In this document: positions 3,228-47,542 of the stretch, piece after piece | Layout: each line of letters begins with the position of its first letter | How positions within the stretch are numbered: position 1 is the stretch's first letter | Assembly (NCBI RefSeq): GCF_001485535.1 | Contig: NZ_BCMZ01000001.1 | Location: 868,001-932,000 of the forward strand | Source of the DNA: Halobacterium sp. CBA1132 | GTDB taxonomy: Archaea; Halobacteriota; Halobacteria; Halobacteriales; Halobacteriaceae | Direction: 5' to 3' | DNA length: 64,000 bases | Translations under genes and position numbers: made by a program | The notes under the pieces: model-generated | The model's input: only the letters and a program-made list of their open reading frames with translations | What the model was told of the DNA's origin: nothing | The model's database searches: none

Positions 3228-4586
3228 ATGGACCTCTTCGGTACGGCAGGGATTCGAGGGAGTGCGGCCGCCGACGTGACCCCGGAACTCGCGGTCGCTG
3301 TCGGCGCCGCGGCCGGCGCGGACGCTCGCGGCGACGACGAGGCGTTCGTCGTCGCGCGGGACGGCCGGGAGACGGGGCCGGCGCTGGCGGCGGCGATGAG
3401 CGCGGGCTTGCAGGCCGGCGGGATGCGCGTGCTGGACGCGGGCGTGTTGCCGACGCCGGCGCTGGCGTACGCCTCGCAGGGGAAACGCGGCGTTCAGCTC
3501 ACGGCGAGCCACAATCCGCCCGAGGACAACGGCATCAAACTGTTCGTGGACGGCTCCGAGTACGACCGGGAGCGCGAGCGCGCCATCGAGGACCGCGTGG
3601 ACAGCGACCCCGAGTACGCGTCGTGGACCGACTGGGGGAAGACCGAGTCCGTCGAGGTACTTCCGGACTACCGGGCGGCCGTCGCCGAGTACGCTAGCGG
3701 GCACGGCGCGCCGCTGGACGGCTTGACCGTGGCGGTCGACTGCGGGAACGGCGTCGCGAGCCTCGCCACGCCCCAGGTGCTGCGCGAGTTGGGCGCGCAC
3801 GTCGTCACGCTGAACGCGAACGTCGACGGCCACTTCCCCGGCCGGCCGAGCAAGCCGACGCCGGAGACGCTCGGCGACCTGATGGACTTTGTCGCGAACG
3901 GCGACGCCGCGTTCGGCATCGCCCACGACGGCGACGCCGACCGCATCGTGCTCGTGGACGGCGATGGCGAGGTCGTACACGAGGACACGGTGCTCGCGGT
4001 GCTCGCGGAACACTACACGCGAGACAGTGACGCCGACGACCCCGTGGTGGTGACGACGCCGAACGCGTCCGCGCGAATCGACGAGCGCGTCGAGGACGCC
4101 GGTGGACGCGTCGAGCGCGTTCGGCTCGGCGCGCTCCACGAGGGCATCGCGTCGGCCCGCGAGGACGGCGGCGACGTAGTGTTCGCGGCGGAGCCGTGGA
4201 AGCACGTCCACACCGCGTTCGGCGGGTGGATAGACGGCGTGGCGTCGGCGGCCGTCCTCTCGCGACTGGTCGCGGAGGCCGACGGACTCGCGGCGCTGCG
4301 CGACCCCGTGACCGAGCGCCCGTACCGGAAAGTCAGCGTCGAGTGCCCGGACGCCGCCAAGGACGCGGTGATGGCGAAACTCGGCGAGGACCTGCCCGCG
4401 GCGTTCCCGGACGCCGACGTGAACACCGAGTACGGCGTCCGCTTGGAGTTCCCGGACGCGTCGTGGACGCTCGTGCGACCCAGCGGCACCGAACCCTACG
4501 TTCGCGTGTACGCTGAGAGCGACGACGTCGACGAACTCGTGGAGTCCGTCTCTGGTGTCGTCGAAGACGCGGTCGCACAAGCCTGA
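3228..4586 (+). CDS. Alpha-D-phosphohexomutase family protein (GlmM/ManB-like)
   Basis: A 452-residue enzyme of the phosphoglucomutase/phosphomannomutase superfamily. The N-terminus has GTAGIRGS; the phosphoserine loop is TASHNPPEDNG with the catalytic serine at residue 94; the metal loop DGDADR is at residues 234-239; the C-terminal phosphate-binding loop is RPSGTEPYVRVY. All four expected regions are present and the length is normal. The usual annotation would be phosphoglucosamine or phosphomannomutase. Its position directly before a nucleoside transporter, cytidine deaminase and uridine phosphorylase raises the possibility that it converts ribose-1-phosphate to ribose-5-phosphate; that is inference from context only. 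The start ATG at 3228 is the first in frame after a short gap. Confidence 0.9.
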   Translation: MDLFGTAGIRGSAAADVTPELAVAVGAAAGADARGDDEAFVVARDGRETGPALAAAMSAGLQAGGMRVLDAGVLPTPALAYASQGKRGVQLTASHNPPEDNGIKLFVDGSEYDRERERAIEDRVDSDPEYASWTDWGKTESVEVLPDYRAAVAEYASGHGAPLDGLTVAVDCGNGVASLATPQVLRELGAHVVTLNANVDGHFPGRPSKPTPETLGDLMDFVANGDAAFGIAHDGDADRIVLVDGDGEVVHEDTVLAVLAEHYTRDSDADDPVVVTTPNASARIDERVEDAGGRVERVRLGALHEGIASAREDGGDVVFAAEPWKHVHTAFGGWIDGVASAAVLSRLVAEADGLAALRDPVTERPYRKVSVECPDAAKDAVMAKLGEDLPAAFPDADVNTEYGVRLEFPDASWTLVRPSGTEPYVRVYAESDDVDELVESVSGVVEDAVAQA

Positions 4587-7405: not shown

Positions 7406-8739
7406 AGCTCCCCGACCGAGCGAACGACCTGCTCGGGCGCCTCGTCCGCGCGTCGGCGTTCGAGCGATTCCTCATCAGCACGTCCGCGCTCCTGCTGTCG
7501 GTGTTCATCGGCGCGCTCATCATTCTCGGCGCCGGCCGCATGACCGACTGCGCCAGCGCCGCGTACACGCTGGCGTTCCCCGGTGCGTTCGTCACGTCCA
7601 CGCTCCCCGGACTGGTGCCGGGTGTCGTGAAGTCCGCGCTCCCCGCGGGCCTGTGGCCGTCGCAGTCGCTGTTCGCGATGGGGTTCTGCTACGACCCGTT
7701 CGCGGTGTACGACCTGCTTTTCCTCGGCGCGCTCGGCAACGTCGTGAACGACCCGCTCAACGGCCAGTTCGCGACGACGCTCGCCGAGACCACGATTCTG
7801 ATGTTCACGGGCGTCGCGGTCGCAGTGGCGTTCCGTGCGGACATCTTCAACATCGGTGTACAGGGACAGCTCGTCGTCGGCGCGCTCACCACGGGCGTCG
7901 TGCTCTCGTTCCTCGCGCCGCCGCTGGCGAGCCTCGGTGTCGTCGCCACGCTCGTCTTGCTCCCGCTGGGCCTCTTGCTCGGCGGCATTTCGGGCGGCCT
8001 CTACGCCGCGATTCCCGGCGCCTTGAAGGCGTACGCGGACGCCAACGAGGTCATCACCACCATCATGCTGAACTTCGTCGCCACCTCCATCGCGCTCTTC
8101 TTGGTCTCCCGCGCGAAGTACTTCAAGGACCCCGAGAGCTTCGCGAACCAGACCGTCCCGCTGCCGGACATCGCGCTGTTCCCGTCGTGGCTGTTCCGCG
8201 CCCGCGACGACGCATCCATACTCGCGCTCGCGCTCGCTATCGCGGTGCTCGTCGGCATCTGGTATCTCCTCCAGCACACGCCGTTCGGCTACGACCTCCG
8301 CACGAGCGGTCTCCAGCCGGACGCCGCGGAGTACGGCGGTGTCGACGCCGACCGCACCATCGTCTCCAGCATGACGCTGTCCGGCGCGCTCGCCGGCATC
8401 GGCGGCGCCGTCTACGTGCTGATGGTGCTGGGGAACTTCCAGACCGGCGTCCCCGACTACGGCTTCGACGGCATCACCGTCTCCATCCTCGCCGGAAACA
8501 ATCCGCTCGGCATCGGCTTCGCGGCGTTCCTCTTCGGCGTGCTCAAGAGCGGGTCCATCGTCGTGCAGGTCGGTTCGGACGTTCCGCCGACGCTCGTCGG
8601 CGTGCTCCGCGGACTCATCATCCTGTTCGTCGCGATGCCCGAGTTCTTCCGGATGCTCGGCCGCAAGTTCGGTTCGTTCGGCTCGCCCGGCGAGCCAGTT
8701 GGCGCCGACGGCGCCACCGGAGGTGGGAGCGATGAGTGA
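7402..8739 (+). CDS. Nucleoside ABC transporter permease 1
   Basis: A 445-residue integral membrane protein of the BPD-transporter-2 (RbsC/YufP) type with about eight to ten hydrophobic segments. The N-terminal 130 residues are longer than in bacterial YufP. Conserved parts include ADIFNIGVQGQL, DANEVITTIMLNF and SGALAGIGGAVY, the last of which marks the loop that contacts the ATPase. GTG is taken as the start because it overlaps the stop of the ATPase gene (GTGA) and no good alternative exists. The C-terminus ends in a Gly/Asp-rich tail whose codons carry the GGAGGTGG ribosome site of the next gene. Confidence 0.93.
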   Translation: MKLPDRANDLLGRLVRASAFERFLISTSALLLSVFIGALIILGAGRMTDCASAAYTLAFPGAFVTSTLPGLVPGVVKSALPAGLWPSQSLFAMGFCYDPFAVYDLLFLGALGNVVNDPLNGQFATTLAETTILMFTGVAVAVAFRADIFNIGVQGQLVVGALTTGVVLSFLAPPLASLGVVATLVLLPLGLLLGGISGGLYAAIPGALKAYADANEVITTIMLNFVATSIALFLVSRAKYFKDPESFANQTVPLPDIALFPSWLFRARDDASILALALAIAVLVGIWYLLQHTPFGYDLRTSGLQPDAAEYGGVDADRTIVSSMTLSGALAGIGGAVYVLMVLGNFQTGVPDYGFDGITVSILAGNNPLGIGFAAFLFGVLKSGSIVVQVGSDVPPTLVGVLRGLIILFVAMPEFFRMLGRKFGSFGSPGEPVGADGATGGGSDE

Positions 8740-9895
8740 CGAACCCCCGGTCTTCGGCACCGTTCGTCGCGCCGCTGCCGCCACCTACGATTGGCTGTTC
8801 GTCGGTCGGAGCCACCTCCAGCAGTCGGTCATCAGCCTCGTCCTGCTCGCCGCCATCGGCCTCACCGCCGCCGGCGTGTTCGCGCCCGAATCCGACGCCG
8901 GCCGACTGTTCGCCGTGCTCACCGCCGACTCGACGCTCGCCGCGACGCTGCGACTCTCGGTCCCCATCGCGTTCGCCGCGCTGGGCGGTATCTTCGCGGA
9001 GAAGAGCGGCGTCATCAACATCGGTCTCGAAGGCCTGCTCATCATCGCCGCGTTCACCGGCATCTGGGCGACCGACGTGACCGGAAACGTCTGGTACGGG
9101 CTGCTCGGCGGCGTACTCGCGAGTACGCTGCTGGCGGGCCTGTTCGCCATCGTCTGCATCGAGTTCCGGGCCGACCAGATTATCGCCGGCCTCGCCGTGT
9201 GGCTCATCGCGCTCGGCCTCGCGCCGTTCCTCTCCTCGGTCATCTACGGGTCGAAAAACACCGTCAGCGTCGACACGTTCCCGACGCTCCCGCAGATGGG
9301 GATTCCGGTGCTCTCGGACGCGGTCGCGTCACCGATACCGTTCGTCGGCGTCGCGCCCGTCGACATCCCGTTCTTCGGCGCGCTGTTCGACGCCAGCCCG
9401 CCGGTCTACCTGATGCTGCTTGCCGTCGCGCTGTCGTGGTACACGCTCCACCGCACCGCGTTCGGGCGCTGGGTCGAAGCCAGCGGCGAGAACCCGAAGG
9501 CGCTGGACACCGCGGGCGTGAACGTCCACCGCGTCCGGTACGCGGCCGTCCTGCTGTCGGGCGTGCTTGCGGGCGTCGGCGGCGCCGCGCTCGCGCTCGG
9601 CGTCGGCCAGTTCACCGGAAACGGCCCGACGATGGTCAACGGCAAGGGGTTCATCGCCATCGTGGCGTACCTCTTCGGGAACTACCACCCCATCGGGGCG
9701 CTCGGCTCCACGATGCTGTTCGCGGGCCTCGACGCCACGCAGCTCACGCTGCAGGCGCGGGACGTCTTCCAAGTGCCGACGGAACTCGTGCGCACGATTC
9801 CGTACGTCACGGTCATCGTCGTCCTCGCCGTGTTCGGTCGCACTCGCATCCCCTCGGCGGGCGGCGAGCACTACGAGTCCGGCGAGGACGAGTAA
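8732..9895 (+). CDS. Nucleoside ABC transporter permease 2
   Basis: A 387-residue second permease of the same family (YufQ-like), with the hallmark EKSGVINIGLEGL, FRADQIIAGLAVWLIALG and SGVLAGVGGAALALG stretches and about nine membrane segments. The ATG at 8732 is chosen because it follows GGAGGTGG (about 8720-8727) by a few bases and overlaps the end of permease 1 by 8 bases; an upstream TTG in frame lies inside the first permease. The pair of permeases is expected to form a heterodimeric channel for nucleosides with the preceding ATPase and lipoprotein. Confidence 0.94.
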   Translation: MSDEPPVFGTVRRAAAATYDWLFVGRSHLQQSVISLVLLAAIGLTAAGVFAPESDAGRLFAVLTADSTLAATLRLSVPIAFAALGGIFAEKSGVINIGLEGLLIIAAFTGIWATDVTGNVWYGLLGGVLASTLLAGLFAIVCIEFRADQIIAGLAVWLIALGLAPFLSSVIYGSKNTVSVDTFPTLPQMGIPVLSDAVASPIPFVGVAPVDIPFFGALFDASPPVYLMLLAVALSWYTLHRTAFGRWVEASGENPKALDTAGVNVHRVRYAAVLLSGVLAGVGGAALALGVGQFTGNGPTMVNGKGFIAIVAYLFGNYHPIGALGSTMLFAGLDATQLTLQARDVFQVPTELVRTIPYVTVIVVLAVFGRTRIPSAGGEHYESGEDE

Positions 9896-42008: not shown

Positions 42009-42992
42009 ATGAGTGACACCACGCGAACCCGCGACGTGCGCGAGGACGCCGAGAGCGAAACCGAAGACGAGCGCGAAGCCGTCGACGAGGAACTCCACTG
42101 CCCCGAGTGCGGTGGCAACCTCGCCGTCGACGACGAGCGCGGGGAGACCGTCTGCGAGGACTGCGGCCTCGTCGTCGAGGAGGATAGTATCGACCGCGGC
42201 CCCGAGTGGCGCGCGTTCGGCAGCGAGGAGAACGACCAGAAGTCCCGCGTCGGCGCGCCGACGACGAACATGATGCACGACAAGGGGCTGTCGACGAACA
42301 TCGGCTGGCAGGACAAAGACGCCTACGGCAACTCCCTGTCCAGCAGTCAGCGCCAGAAGATGCAGCGCCTCCGCAAGTGGAACGAGCGCTTCCGCACGCG
42401 AACGTCGAAAGAACGGAATCTGAAGCAAGCGCTCGGCGAAATCGAGCGGATGGCCTCCGCGCTCGGCCTCCCGAAGAACGTCCGCGAGACGGCCTCCGTC
42501 ATCTACCGCCGCGCCCTCGACGAGGACCTGCTGCCGGGTCGCTCCATCGAGGGCGTCGCCACGAGCTCCCTGTACGCCGCCGCTCGGCAGGCCGGCGCCC
42601 CTCGGAGTCTCGACGAGGTGGCGAACGTCAGCCGCGTCGAGCGCGACGAAATCGCGCGCACGTACCGCTACGTCGCCCGCGAACTCGGCCTCGAAGTCGC
42701 GCCCACGGACCCCGCGAGCTACGTCCCGCGGTTCTGCTCGGACCTCGGACTCACCGACGAGGTCGAACGACGCGCCCGCGACCTCCTGGAGAGCGCCGAA
42801 AAGGCAGGCCTCTACTCCGGGAAATCCCCCGTAGGGCTCGCTGCCGCGGCGGTGTACGCCGCCAGCCTGCTCGTCGACGAGCGCATCACGCAGAGCCAAG
42901 TCAGCGACGTCGCGAACGTCAGCGAAGTCACCATCCGCAACCGCTACCACGAGATTCTGGAGGCCGGCGGGGAGGCGAACGTCGAAGCCTGA
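42009..42992 (+). CDS. tfb: Transcription initiation factor IIB (TFB)
   Basis: A 327-residue general transcription factor. An N-terminal zinc ribbon (HCPECGGN and VCEDCGLVVEE, about residues 31-57) is followed by the B-reader/linker (PEWRAFGSEE) and two cyclin folds (about 120-215 and 220-315), ending with a region containing VANVSEVTIRNRYHEIL, which reads the BRE upstream of the TATA box. Haloarchaea carry several TFB paralogues, so this is one of a set and I do not assign a letter. A TATTAGA box lies at 33-39 bp before the start. Confidence 0.97.
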   Translation: MSDTTRTRDVREDAESETEDEREAVDEELHCPECGGNLAVDDERGETVCEDCGLVVEEDSIDRGPEWRAFGSEENDQKSRVGAPTTNMMHDKGLSTNIGWQDKDAYGNSLSSSQRQKMQRLRKWNERFRTRTSKERNLKQALGEIERMASALGLPKNVRETASVIYRRALDEDLLPGRSIEGVATSSLYAAARQAGAPRSLDEVANVSRVERDEIARTYRYVARELGLEVAPTDPASYVPRFCSDLGLTDEVERRARDLLESAEKAGLYSGKSPVGLAAAAVYAASLLVDERITQSQVSDVANVSEVTIRNRYHEILEAGGEANVEA

Positions 42993-43038: not shown

Positions 43039-43509
43039 ATGGAGACGACGCGTCACTTCACCGCCACCGTCTACGTCGTCAACGACGGCGCCACTGCGCT
43101 CCACGAACACGACCGCCTCGGCCTCACGATTCCGCCGGGCGGCCACGTGGACCGCGACGAACTCCCGCACGAAGCCGGCAAACGCGAAGTCGAGGAGGAG
43201 ACCGGCTTAGAGCCGACGCTGCTCGGGGAAGCGCCGGACGTGCCCGCGCCCGACGGCTTCGCGCTGCCGTCGCCGCGCTACCAGCTCTGCTACGACATCA
43301 ACGTCCACGAGGACGGCACGGTCGGCCACCAGCACATCGACCACGTCTACTTCGCGACCGTTCCCTCACGGGACATCGACCCCGCGGACGGCGAAGCGGG
43401 CGTCGACGCGTGGACGTGGTACGACCCCACGGACCTCCGCGAGAGCGACCTCGACGCCGACACTGTCCAAATCGCGCTAGAGGCCATCGGCGCTGCCAGC
43501 GACGCGTAG
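43039..43509 (+). CDS. NUDIX hydrolase
   Basis: A 156-residue NUDIX protein. The NUDIX box is recognisable as GGHVDRDELPHEAGKREVEEETGL (Gx5Ex7REUxEExGU; here Gly46-like start, catalytic REVEEE). Such enzymes cleave nucleoside diphosphates linked to another group, including oxidised nucleotides or sugar nucleotides. The position before the asparagine-synthase-like and PHP genes is convergent, so no operon link is implied. The stop lies immediately before the stop of that gene. Confidence 0.9.
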   Translation: METTRHFTATVYVVNDGATALHEHDRLGLTIPPGGHVDRDELPHEAGKREVEEETGLEPTLLGEAPDVPAPDGFALPSPRYQLCYDINVHEDGTVGHQHIDHVYFATVPSRDIDPADGEAGVDAWTWYDPTDLRESDLDADTVQIALEAIGAASDA

Positions 43510-44573
43510 TCAGCCTAGCCGGTTCCGGATGTACTTCGTGACGTGGTCGTCCATCCGGCGCTTGAACCCCGCCCGCCGCGCGAGCCGGTCGACCTCGCGG
43601 GCGACGAGGCTGCCGTACTGGACGGCCTTCTTCTCGCGGTCGCAGACCGCGTCCGGGAGTCGCTCGCGCGCCGCCCCCCGGAGCGCGCGCTTCCGCGTCT
43701 CTCCCGACACCAGCCACTCCTCGGGGAGTTCCAGCGCCGCGCGCACGACGTCGTCGTGGAGCAGCGGCGTCACCGGTTCGACGCCCGCCGCACGCACGGC
43801 GCGCACGTCTCGCTCCAGTTGCTCGGGCAGCGTCTCCAGCACCTCGCGGCGCGCCTCTCGGACGGTGTCGGCGTCCGTCCGCGGGTCGTCGGGTGCAGCC
43901 GCGACCTTCGCGTACCCGCCGAACAGTTCGTCTGCGCCCTGTCCGAGTGCCAGCCGAGAGAAGCCGTCGCTGGCGGCGCGCTCGGCGACGAGATAGATGG
44001 GGAGCGCGATTTGGACGGCCATCGCGTTCGTGCGGCCGATTGCGCGCGCCACCTTGGGAATCGCGGCTTCGATGTCGTCCAGCGTCACCTCGTGGACGCG
44101 CAGGTCGTCGGCGCGCCCCATCGCCGCTGCCGACTCCCGCGCCGCCTCGATGTCCGCGCAGCCCTCGTATCCGACGACGTACAGCGGCGCGTCGAGGCCG
44201 ACGGCGACGAGCGCGGAGTCCACACCCCCGAGAACGCGACCGCGAGGCCGTCCTCGGACACGTCGAGCGCCCCGTCGAGCGCGTCTCGAACGGTTCCCAC
44301 GGGGTCGTCGGCGCTCGCGGGCGGGTCGGGGAGTTGCCACGCGCGCCGCGTCTCGCCGTTCTCGCGGACGTGGCCGGCGGGCAGCAGCGTCGGGTCGTCG
44401 AGGTCGCTGGGGTCACTGCTCCACGCCCCGCCGTCGACGTAACAGAGGTCGCGCCCGAGCACGTCCCGGATGAGGCGGCCGTCAGCGAGGCGCCCGGCGA
44501 ATCCGTCGGTGCCGGGGAGCGGATTCTCGTCGTCGAGCGCCCTGTGGACTGTCGCGTCGAGGGCGTCGTCCAT
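43510..44573 (-). pseudogene. Asparagine synthase-like protein, frameshifted in the PP-loop
   Basis: Two overlapping frames join into one 354-residue protein if one base is restored. The upstream frame (44573 leftwards) runs MDDALDATVHRAL and ends at AVAFSG; the downstream frame (to 43510) continues with GVDSALVAVGLDAPLYVV. Together they give FSGGVDSA, the ATP-pyrophosphatase PP-loop of asparagine synthetases. The break is at a run of five C on the plus strand (44225-44229), where six would keep the frame. The remainder (GQGADELFGGYAKV, VEPVTPLLHDDVV, EKKAVQYGS, YIRNRLG) is well preserved and GC-ending. There is no N-terminal Cys glutaminase domain, so the intact protein would be an ammonia-using or other PP-loop enzyme. 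A sequencing error and a genuine mutation are both possible. Confidence 0.85.
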
Positions 44574-44576
44574 CCG

Positions 44577-45260
44577 TCAGAAGAACTCCGCGAGGCGGTT
44601 CTTCACGCGGCGCTTGGCGCCGCCCGCCGCCTGCCGGAAACTGATGCGCCACGGCGTGCGCTTGCCCTCCACGCTCGTCCGGCCGTCCCGGATGGCGTCG
44701 AGGATGCCGTCGAGCGAGCGCTCGTCGGCGCCGACGCGGGTCACCGCCTGCCCCACCATCTCCGCGATGTGGGCGTCGCTGCCCGCGGTCATCGGGAGGT
44801 TGTGGGTGCGCGCGAACCGCTCGGCTTTGCGGTTCGCGCGGCCCGTCAGCAGCCGCGAGTTGTACACCTCGATGGCGTCGGCGGACGCCAGCGTCGCCGT
44901 CGAGATGTTCGGCGCGACGCCGCTTCGCGAGGACTGGAACGGGTGGGGGACGACGGCGAGACCGCCGCGGTCGCGAATCTCGTCGAGCGTGTCCACGAAC
45001 GGCTCGCCCGACGGCACCGCCTCCTCGACGCCGAGGGCGAGGACGTGGCCGTCAGCGCTGGTCACCTCCATCCCGGGGATGCCGACGAGGCCGTACTCCT
45101 CGGCGAGGTCGGCGGCCCGGAGGCTCGCCTCGATTTCGTCGTGGTCGGTGACCGCGAGCGCGTCGAGCCCCACCGCCTGCGCCTGCTCTAAGAGCATCTC
45201 GACGGGGTCGCGGCCGTCGTAGGAGAGTTCGGAGTGCGCGTGGAGTTCGACGGAAAGCAC
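44577..45260 (-). CDS. PHP-domain phosphoesterase
   Basis: A 227-residue PHP-family metallo-hydrolase. Motifs: VELHAHSELS at the N-terminus (HxH), ALAVTDHDE (TDHxE), VVPHPF and SDAHIAEMVG, giving the trinuclear metal site of phosphatases or nucleases of this family. The GTG start at 45260 gives MLSVELHAHS, the family's usual beginning; longer frames add an Arg-rich stretch that looks non-coding. The gene ends 3 bases before the start of the asparagine-synthase-like gene, so the two form an operon with a possible shared pathway. It is divergent from purL. Confidence 0.87.
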   Translation of the reverse strand: MLSVELHAHSELSYDGRDPVEMLLEQAQAVGLDALAVTDHDEIEASLRAADLAEEYGLVGIPGMEVTSADGHVLALGVEEAVPSGEPFVDTLDEIRDRGGLAVVPHPFQSSRSGVAPNISTATLASADAIEVYNSRLLTGRANRKAERFARTHNLPMTAGSDAHIAEMVGQAVTRVGADERSLDGILDAIRDGRTSVEGKRTPWRISFRQAAGGAKRRVKNRLAEFF

Positions 45261-45391: not shown

Positions 45392-47542
45392 ATGCCACTC
45401 GCCGAATCGGACCGACGCCTCGTCGAAGCGGAACTGGGACGGGACCCGACGCGGGCGGAGGCCGCGCTGTTCGAGAACCTCTGGAGCGAGCACTGCGCGT
45501 ACCGCTCCTCGCGCCCGCTGTTGTCCGCGTTCACCACCGACAGCGACGACGTCGTCGTCGGACCGGGCGACGACGCCGCCGTGGTGTCGGTCCCCGGCAC
45601 GGACCAGTTGGTGACGTTCGGCGTCGAGAGCCACAACCACCCCTCCTACGTCGACCCCTACGACGGCGCGGCGACGGGCGTCGGCGGCATCGTCCGCGAC
45701 ACGCTCTCGATGGGCGCGTACCCCATCGCGCTCGCCGACGCGCTGTACTTCGGGGGCTTCGACCGCGACCACTCCCGCTACCTCCTCGACGGCGTCGTGG
45801 AGGGCATCAGCGACTACGGGAACGCCATCGGCGTCCCCACGGTCACGGGGAGCACGCAGTTCCACGACGGCTACGAGGGCAACCCGCTCGTGAACGTCGC
45901 GTGCGTCGGCCTCGTCACCGAGGACCGCCTCGTCACCGCCGCCGCGAAAGAACCCGGGAACAAGCTCGTGCTCGTCGGGAACGCGACCGGACGGGACGGC
46001 CTCGGCGGCGCGAGTTTCGCGAGCGAGGACCTCGCTGAGGACGCCGAGACGGAGGACCGGCCCGCGGTGCAGGTCGGCGACCCGTACACGGAGAAACTCC
46101 TCGTGGAGGCCAACGAAGCGCTCGTCGACGAGGGCCTCCTGCAGGCTGCCCGCGACCTCGGCGCGGCGGGACTGGGCGGCGCGTCCTCGGAGTTGGTCGC
46201 GCTCGGCGGCCTCGGCGCGCGCATCGACCTGAACGAGGTCCACCAGCGCGAACCGAACATGAACGCGCTCGAAATCCTGCTCGCCGAATCCCAGGAGCGG
46301 ATGTGCTACGAGGTCCGCCCCGAGGACGTCGAGCGCGTGCGGGAAATCGCGGAGCGCTTCGACCTCGGCTGCTCGGTCATCGGCGAAGTCACCGACGGGA
46401 ACTACGTCTGCGAGTTCGACAGCGAGGCGCAAGGCGCCTCGGAAGACGCGAGCGGCGACAGCCGCGAGCCAGAGACCGTCGTGGACGCGCCTGCTGAGTT
46501 CCTCGCGGACGGCGCGCCGATGAACGACCTCGAACGCGAGGAGCCGACCGAACCTGAGACGGACCTGCCCGACGCCGCCCTCGGCGAGGCGTTCGACGCG
46601 GTGCTGTCGAGTCCGAACACGGCGAGCAAGCGCTGGGTGTACCGCCAGTACGACCACGAGGTCGGCAACCGGACGCTCCGGCGGCCCGGCGAGGACGCGG
46701 CCGCGCTCACCCTCCCAGAAGCCGACGGGGAGACCGCGCTGGCGTTCTCCGCGGGCGCGAACCCGAACTGGACGACAGCGTCGCCGTACCGGGGCGCGTA
46801 CGCGACGGCCGTGGAGAACGCGACGAACCTCGCGGCCGTCGGCGCGGAGCCGCTGGCGGCGGTGGACTGCCTGAACGGCGGGAACCCCGAGAAGCCCGAC
46901 GTCTACGGCGGCTTCGCGGCGGCCGTCGACGGTCTCGCGGACGGCTGTCGCGCCGTCGACGCGCCGGTCGTCGGCGGGAACGTCAGCCTCTACAACGACT
47001 CGGTTGCGGGTCCCGTGCCGCCGACGCCGACGCTCGCGATGATCGGCGTCAGGCAGGGCTACGACGCGCCCGGGATGGCGGCCGCGGGCGATGGAAGTCT
47101 CGTACTCGTCGGCGGCCACGACGAGACGCTCGGCGGGAGCGAGTACCTCGCGCAGTTCGACGGCAGCGCGCCGTTTCCGGAAGTCGGGGCTGCGGGCGTC
47201 GCGGGCGTCCGGACGGCCGCGAATCACGACGCGACGCTCGCGGTTCACGACGTCAGCGACGGCGGCCTCGCGGTGACGCTCGCGGAGATGGTCGACGAGG
47301 ACGCTGGCGTCGCTGTCGACGTGCCCAGCATCGACGCGCTGTTCTCGGAGGCACCCGGCCGTGCAGTCGTGGAGACGACCGACGCGGACGCGCTCCGTGA
47401 GGCCATCGACGCGCCCGTCGTCGACATCGGCGAGGCGACTGGCGACGGCGCGCTGGCGCTCGCTGTGGCTGGGCAGTCCGTCGACTACGACTTCGCGGAA
47501 ATTGTGGACGCGCGAAGCGTCCTCGAACGCGAGCTCGACTAG
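45392..47542 (+). CDS. purL: Phosphoribosylformylglycinamidine synthase subunit PurL
   Basis: A 716-residue PurL of the small type that works with PurS and PurQ to turn FGAR, glutamine and ATP into FGAM, the step just before PurM. Recognisable parts: [59 protein letters not shown]-like [20 protein letters not shown] and DVSDGGLAV. An acidic insertion around residues 350-385 ([14 protein letters not shown]) is haloarchaeal in style. A GACTAAAC box lies at about 26-33 bp before the ATG. Its TAG shares CTAG with the 50-residue gene on the other strand. Confidence 0.97.

Follow-up and report, generated by a model that had tools for sequence, protein, structure and literature searches.

The window analyzed here is a 64,000-nucleotide stretch of the genome of Halobacterium sp. 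CBA1132 (termed G000 in the comparisons; 3,012,807 bases in 4 contigs, grouped with 12 other genomes of its genus), and it carries on its minus strand an asparagine-synthase-like gene recorded in two frames. The upstream half (44227–44573) extends from the ATG at 44573 to a C-terminal AVAFS at 44227, giving 115 residues that comprise a remnant of a class II glutaminase end and the strand leading into the PP-loop. The downstream half (43510–44229), i.e. the synthetase domain from GGVDS to the stop at 43510, gives 239 residues starting GGVDSALV and includes the motifs GQGADELFGGY and EKKAVQYGS. The frames meet at a five-base run at 44225–44229, ccccc on the plus strand and GGGGG on the coding strand, inside the SGGVDS codons; the frame thus changes within the SGGxDS motif of the PP-loop, which the orthologues carry in one frame. 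A sequence-only reading of this DNA had placed the junction of the two frames at this run and proposed that one added base would restore a 354-residue protein, and direct reading of the run and of both translations agreed on both counts (115 + 239 = 354). Its claim of good coding quality on both sides held as well, since the differences from the closely related genome G002 at the three codon positions (15, 16 and 31 in one half; 9, 11 and 58 in the other) showed a third-position bias in both halves, with a net shift of one base.

A Pfam search assigned the downstream open reading frame (ORF) to Asn_synthase (PF00733; E-value 1.3e-28, 101.1 bits against a cut-off of 21) and returned no family for the upstream ORF. 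At close range, no second intact copy was found within the genome, the gene of the window being the sole close match, and the remaining PF00733 matches of this genome were short and weak. On the 3′ side the gene converges with a NUDIX hydrolase gene (43039–43509, plus strand), which is preceded by what is presumably a transcription factor B (TFB) gene (42009–42992, plus strand). Three bases upstream of the broken gene and on the same strand lies the intact open frame of a PHP-domain metallohydrolase of the CehA/McbA type (44577–45260, minus strand, the start at 45260 being approximate), followed by a gene that we take from its sequence to be purL-like (45392–47542, plus strand).

Relationship to asparagine synthetases

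Two intact orthologues (L035 and L006) matched PF00733 with 106 and 105.8 bits (cut-off 21), and scored 111.3 and 104.8 against TIGR01536, the family of glutamine-hydrolysing asparagine synthases, which is below its curated cut-off of 267.1. No GATase family was detected in either protein at E-values up to 1, nor an N-terminal catalytic cysteine with a glutaminase domain. When the Haloarcula salina orthologue was modelled with AlphaFold (mean pLDDT 93.5, pTM 0.91), the best structural match was E. coli asparagine synthetase B (AsnB; PDB 1CT9), with a Z score of 30.8, an rmsd of 3.2 and 349 aligned residues. Sequence alignment of the two brings together the GxGxDE and GVE motifs and the KK/KE lysine, whereas the model aligns only from AsnB residue 73, the front with the catalytic cysteine being missing in the haloarchaeal model. 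They also differ in the E of GEGSDE, which is replaced by Q, and in TTIR, which reads MDVQ in G002 and MAVQ in the window; we take TTIR and this E to be aspartate-side residues of AsnB, and neither is retained in the alignment. Beta-lactam synthetase (1MC1) and carbapenam synthetase (1Q19) share the two-part fold (Z scores of 28.2 and 25.5, respectively) but only 24% and 17% identity; the likeness seen is one of fold.

The haloarchaeal family profile (20 of its 23 rows being haloarchaeal and the rest two methanogen rows and the like) matched archaeal class II homologues from Methanosarcina, Thermococcus and Methanocaldococcus at 1.4e-62, and the GQGADELF and EKKAxQYG-type motifs are common to both. 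Unlike the haloarchaeal proteins, these homologues have an N-terminal glutaminase domain starting Met-Cys, and column 119 of their profile is where the alignment with the haloarchaeal profile begins. Since the alignments begin at AsnB residue 73 and at this column, respectively, the glutaminase front with its cysteine is gone. The earlier statement that the gene lacks a glutaminase domain therefore stands for the catalytic front but needs amending for the back end of the class II glutaminase, of which about 80 residues remain in the haloarchaeal protein. Taken together, the protein is predicted to amidate or ligate a carboxylate other than aspartate at the expense of ATP, the ammonia being free or supplied by a partner. 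It would adenylate this carboxylate with ATP and then amidate it with ammonia, which would not be self-made because the glutaminase end is truncated. The family can thus be described as synthetases widespread in haloarchaea whose glutaminase is reduced to a vestige, and it makes a fair target for biochemistry.

In the portions of the literature available to us, no description of the function of the haloarchaeal asparagine-synthase-like gene was found. The AsnC regulator is the only such name in the accessible text of PMC5198076, PMC2894021 and PMC8229911, while PMC10266531 names an AsnB of nanohaloarchaea and PMC6748925 describes the human enzyme. In PMC11665356, one asparagine synthetase gene per strain is listed by annotation for five Halobacterium salinarum strains, and this is perhaps the same gene as the one described here.

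Distribution and state of the gene among relatives

Among 194 genomes of the order, limited to those with a completeness of 95% or more, 175 gave a match to the gene (that in G036 being weak) and 19 gave none. The frame stays open for at least 200 residues past the motif in 87 of 89 motif-bearing haloarchaeal loci; in the other two, the frame runs into the contig end after the motif (L093) or changes about 20 residues after the motif, at about position 4066 of a metagenome scaffold with unread stretches (L094). The suggested search for the intact gene in sister strains was carried out across the 13 genomes of the genus, of which 8 were found to be intact, two showed frame changes (G000 and G009), and G004, G011 and G006 showed an insert, a deletion and a contig end, respectively. 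The deletion in G011 removes the orthologue cleanly, and its two ends have about 12 bases in common (L186, 10513–10524). The insert in the G004 orthologue is about 1.4 kb long (L136, about 7853–9284) and holds a 438-residue frame whose zinc-ribbon motif suggests a TnpB-like protein. The frame change of G009 lies in the synthetase domain at a GC dinucleotide repeat (L137, 8080–8086), and a synthetase-domain frame change in G118 (contig C2, about 439600) is located at another place than the G run.

A tree of five neighboring genes grouped G000, G002, G004, G009, G011 and G012 together, with G004 and G011 as sisters and a support of 0.31 for the node placing G000. The gene is broken or lost in four of these six genomes versus none of the six in the sister group (p = 0.06), which is no more than suggestive of losses being clustered in one clade. 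Broken copies accounted for 3/11 assessable Halobacterium genomes with the gene versus 2/164 genomes with the gene in the rest of the order (p = 0.0018), in a count made by hand in which the three include G000 itself and G009 (87% complete). A deletion of the gene in one sister species, an insert within it in another and the lack of a match in the 19 genomes of the order mark it as dispensable.

Association with the PHP-domain gene

The PHP neighbor scored 112.4 bits against NF038032 (CehA/McbA PHP metallohydrolase; cut-off 80) and is thereby a member of this family. Coupling of the broken gene to a PHP phosphoesterase gene, as proposed from the window, extends to haloarchaea in general, the PHP gene being directly upstream and on the same strand in 87 of 90 haloarchaeal loci. 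The three loci without this arrangement were L015, which is the part of the G004 copy beyond its insert, L059, with no PHP match in the stretch examined, and L094, whose best match starts late. Of 22 genomes without the asparagine-synthase-like gene (counting G011), 12 were examined for the PHP gene, and 9 of these 12 gave a full-length match with at least 70% identity; in the remaining three, the PHP gene was found in two pieces (G025), as a 56% match (G034) or not at all (G023). The two pieces of the G025 match (contig C125, 19527–20197) overlap and lie in different frames. The PHP gene is retained in genomes that lack the asparagine-synthase-like gene, and the pair is therefore not an obligate pathway; at the 19 non-haloarchaeal loci, no PHP match was found within the stretch examined around each. 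The further proposal that the intact pair forms a two-enzyme pathway is left unsupported by these two results. At a Methanomicrobiales locus and an ANME-2 locus, the homologue is found beside a GatA-like gene (L105, from 3627 and 4622; L107, from 2500 and 3846), and many haloarchaeal loci likewise have a GatA-like gene nearby.

Selective constraint and recurrence of the shifted form

The dN/dS ratio of the downstream half was 0.114 for G000–G002 and 0.115 for G000–G012, compared with 0.114 for the intact pair G002–G012, while the upstream half gave 0.41, 0.32 and 0.33, respectively, the G000–G002 value being the highest. No further lesion was present in the downstream half of the window gene, so that neither relaxed constraint nor additional lesions mark it as a decayed pseudogene. 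Constraint on the synthetase half appears undiminished, with the proviso that a very young lesion would leave no sign.

When 392 genomes of the order were scanned with a pattern that fixes most codons, so that other spellings of the shift escape it, the five-G form was located at the asparagine-synthase-like gene in two genomes (G000 and G177). It occurred once elsewhere, in G107, and this match was dropped as being without homology to the gene. The six-G form was present in 10 of the 392 genomes, six being placed at the gene by alignment (G169, G088, G252 and G237) or by position (G008 and G048) and the other four unplaced. Most relatives spell the PP-loop codons without a pure G run. The sequence-only reading had named homologues sharing the shifted arrangement as a finding that would speak against its account; one other genome among the 392 does share the shift, but the five-G form is sporadic and the shift site lacks the conservation among homologues that would be expected of a programmed frameshift.

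G177 belongs to another family and has the same five-G form of the PP-loop (L199, about 4100–4160), and its adjacent PHP gene shows a second frame change away from any G run. In comparisons with three relatives (13, 18 and 15 comparable genes), only the asparagine-synthase-like and PHP genes of G177 were frame-changed, and against the third relative only the former was.

Frame changes across the genome

The 475 called genes of an 800-kb stretch of G002 were compared with 1.2 Mb of G000 including the matching part. This gave 8 candidate rows for G000 (4 kept, 4 set aside) and 9 for G002 (5 kept, in 4 genes, and 4 set aside), the selection being made by eye after seeing the sequence. The rows set aside were B2_65, B2_86, B2_268 and B2_279 for G000, in which the additional stretch resembles sequence from ahead of the start, and, by eye, A0_481, A0_498, A0_540 and A0_631 for G002. 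Each of the four frame changes kept in G000 is the loss of a single base from a G or C run that now has five. They affect the asparagine-synthase-like gene and, outside the window on contig C1 (about 708574, 1053012 and 1169587), the genes of a T2SSF-domain protein, a DEAD/MZB helicase and a putatively secreted protein. The changes kept in the four G002 genes were four losses (1, 1, 7 and 11 bases) and one single-base gain, none of them at a G/C run of at least five. By genes, 4/4 in G000 versus 0/4 in G002 were at such runs (p = 0.029), which account for 0.46% of the G000 bases compared.

Coding G/C runs of six numbered 57 in G000 and 71 in G002, and those of seven 3 and 1, over 800 kb each. 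Long runs are neither grossly nor plainly depleted in the G000 assembly, and the error rate, if there is error, is therefore a few percent of runs. The kept G000 pattern is that expected from homopolymer under-calling, and cellular slippage could produce it as well. PMC9262707 names homopolymer indels as a reason why nanopore assemblies have required polishing.

Origin of the one-base difference

The sequence-only reading had offered very recent decay, a sequencing or assembly error, or slippage at the run as explanations; these three are the ones to be weighed, and the evidence favors error, with a recent real mutation ranking next and a working slippage site last. Probably, the gene is whole in the living organism and its record is one base short in the G run of the PP-loop, the assembly having under-called the homopolymer; an intact gene in the cell would thus have lost one base on record only. 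We infer the under-call from the pattern of frame changes and favor it because the four kept in G000 are all one-base losses at five-long G/C runs, to which are added the downstream dN/dS equal to that of the intact pair, the lack of any other lesion and the unbroken copies in 87/89 loci. Counted against it are the long runs that are not grossly short, the real loss of the gene in the sisters G004 and G011, the shift shared by G177, the choice of candidates by eye, the upstream dN/dS of G000–G002 and the fact that slippage in the cell also favors such runs. Were slippage at replication the cause, a real and very recent mutation would have inactivated a dispensable gene, with an upstream product that ends early and a downstream half without the start of the ATP loop. 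This main alternative appears less likely, although the same clade holds the clean deletion, the 1.4 kb insert and another frame change, 19 of the 194 genomes have no match with only a weak one in G036, and broken copies are enriched in Halobacterium. The three other kept G000 frame changes of the same homopolymer type argue against it, as cellular slippage would have had to hit a helicase gene and a T2SSF gene in the same strain too, and so does the lack of relaxed constraint in the synthetase half, although a very young lesion would leave no such relaxation.

A ribosome or RNA polymerase that slips by one on the G run would still make some full protein, leaving the gene working or switched. 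On the sequence, slipping back by one base on the GGG codon would restore the correct frame, and the strong constraint on the downstream half and the same five-G form in the distant G177 are consistent with this. It is nevertheless very improbable, as the run is not conserved and most relatives avoid a pure G run, five G is short for slippage, and the five-G spelling is limited to 2/392 genomes at the gene, with the six-G spelling in 10 and placed at the gene in 6. Equally far-fetched is the broader idea that the G run acts as a switch. In that view, the gene of an enzyme related to amidotransferases, which has lost its glutaminase and takes a substrate other than aspartate, would have been silenced repeatedly in haloarchaea, on two occasions through the same run lacking one base, with low-level slippage still yielding some enzyme. 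If under-calling is indeed the cause, the four breaks kept among 475 genes warn against inferring gene loss where this assembly changes frame at a G/C run.
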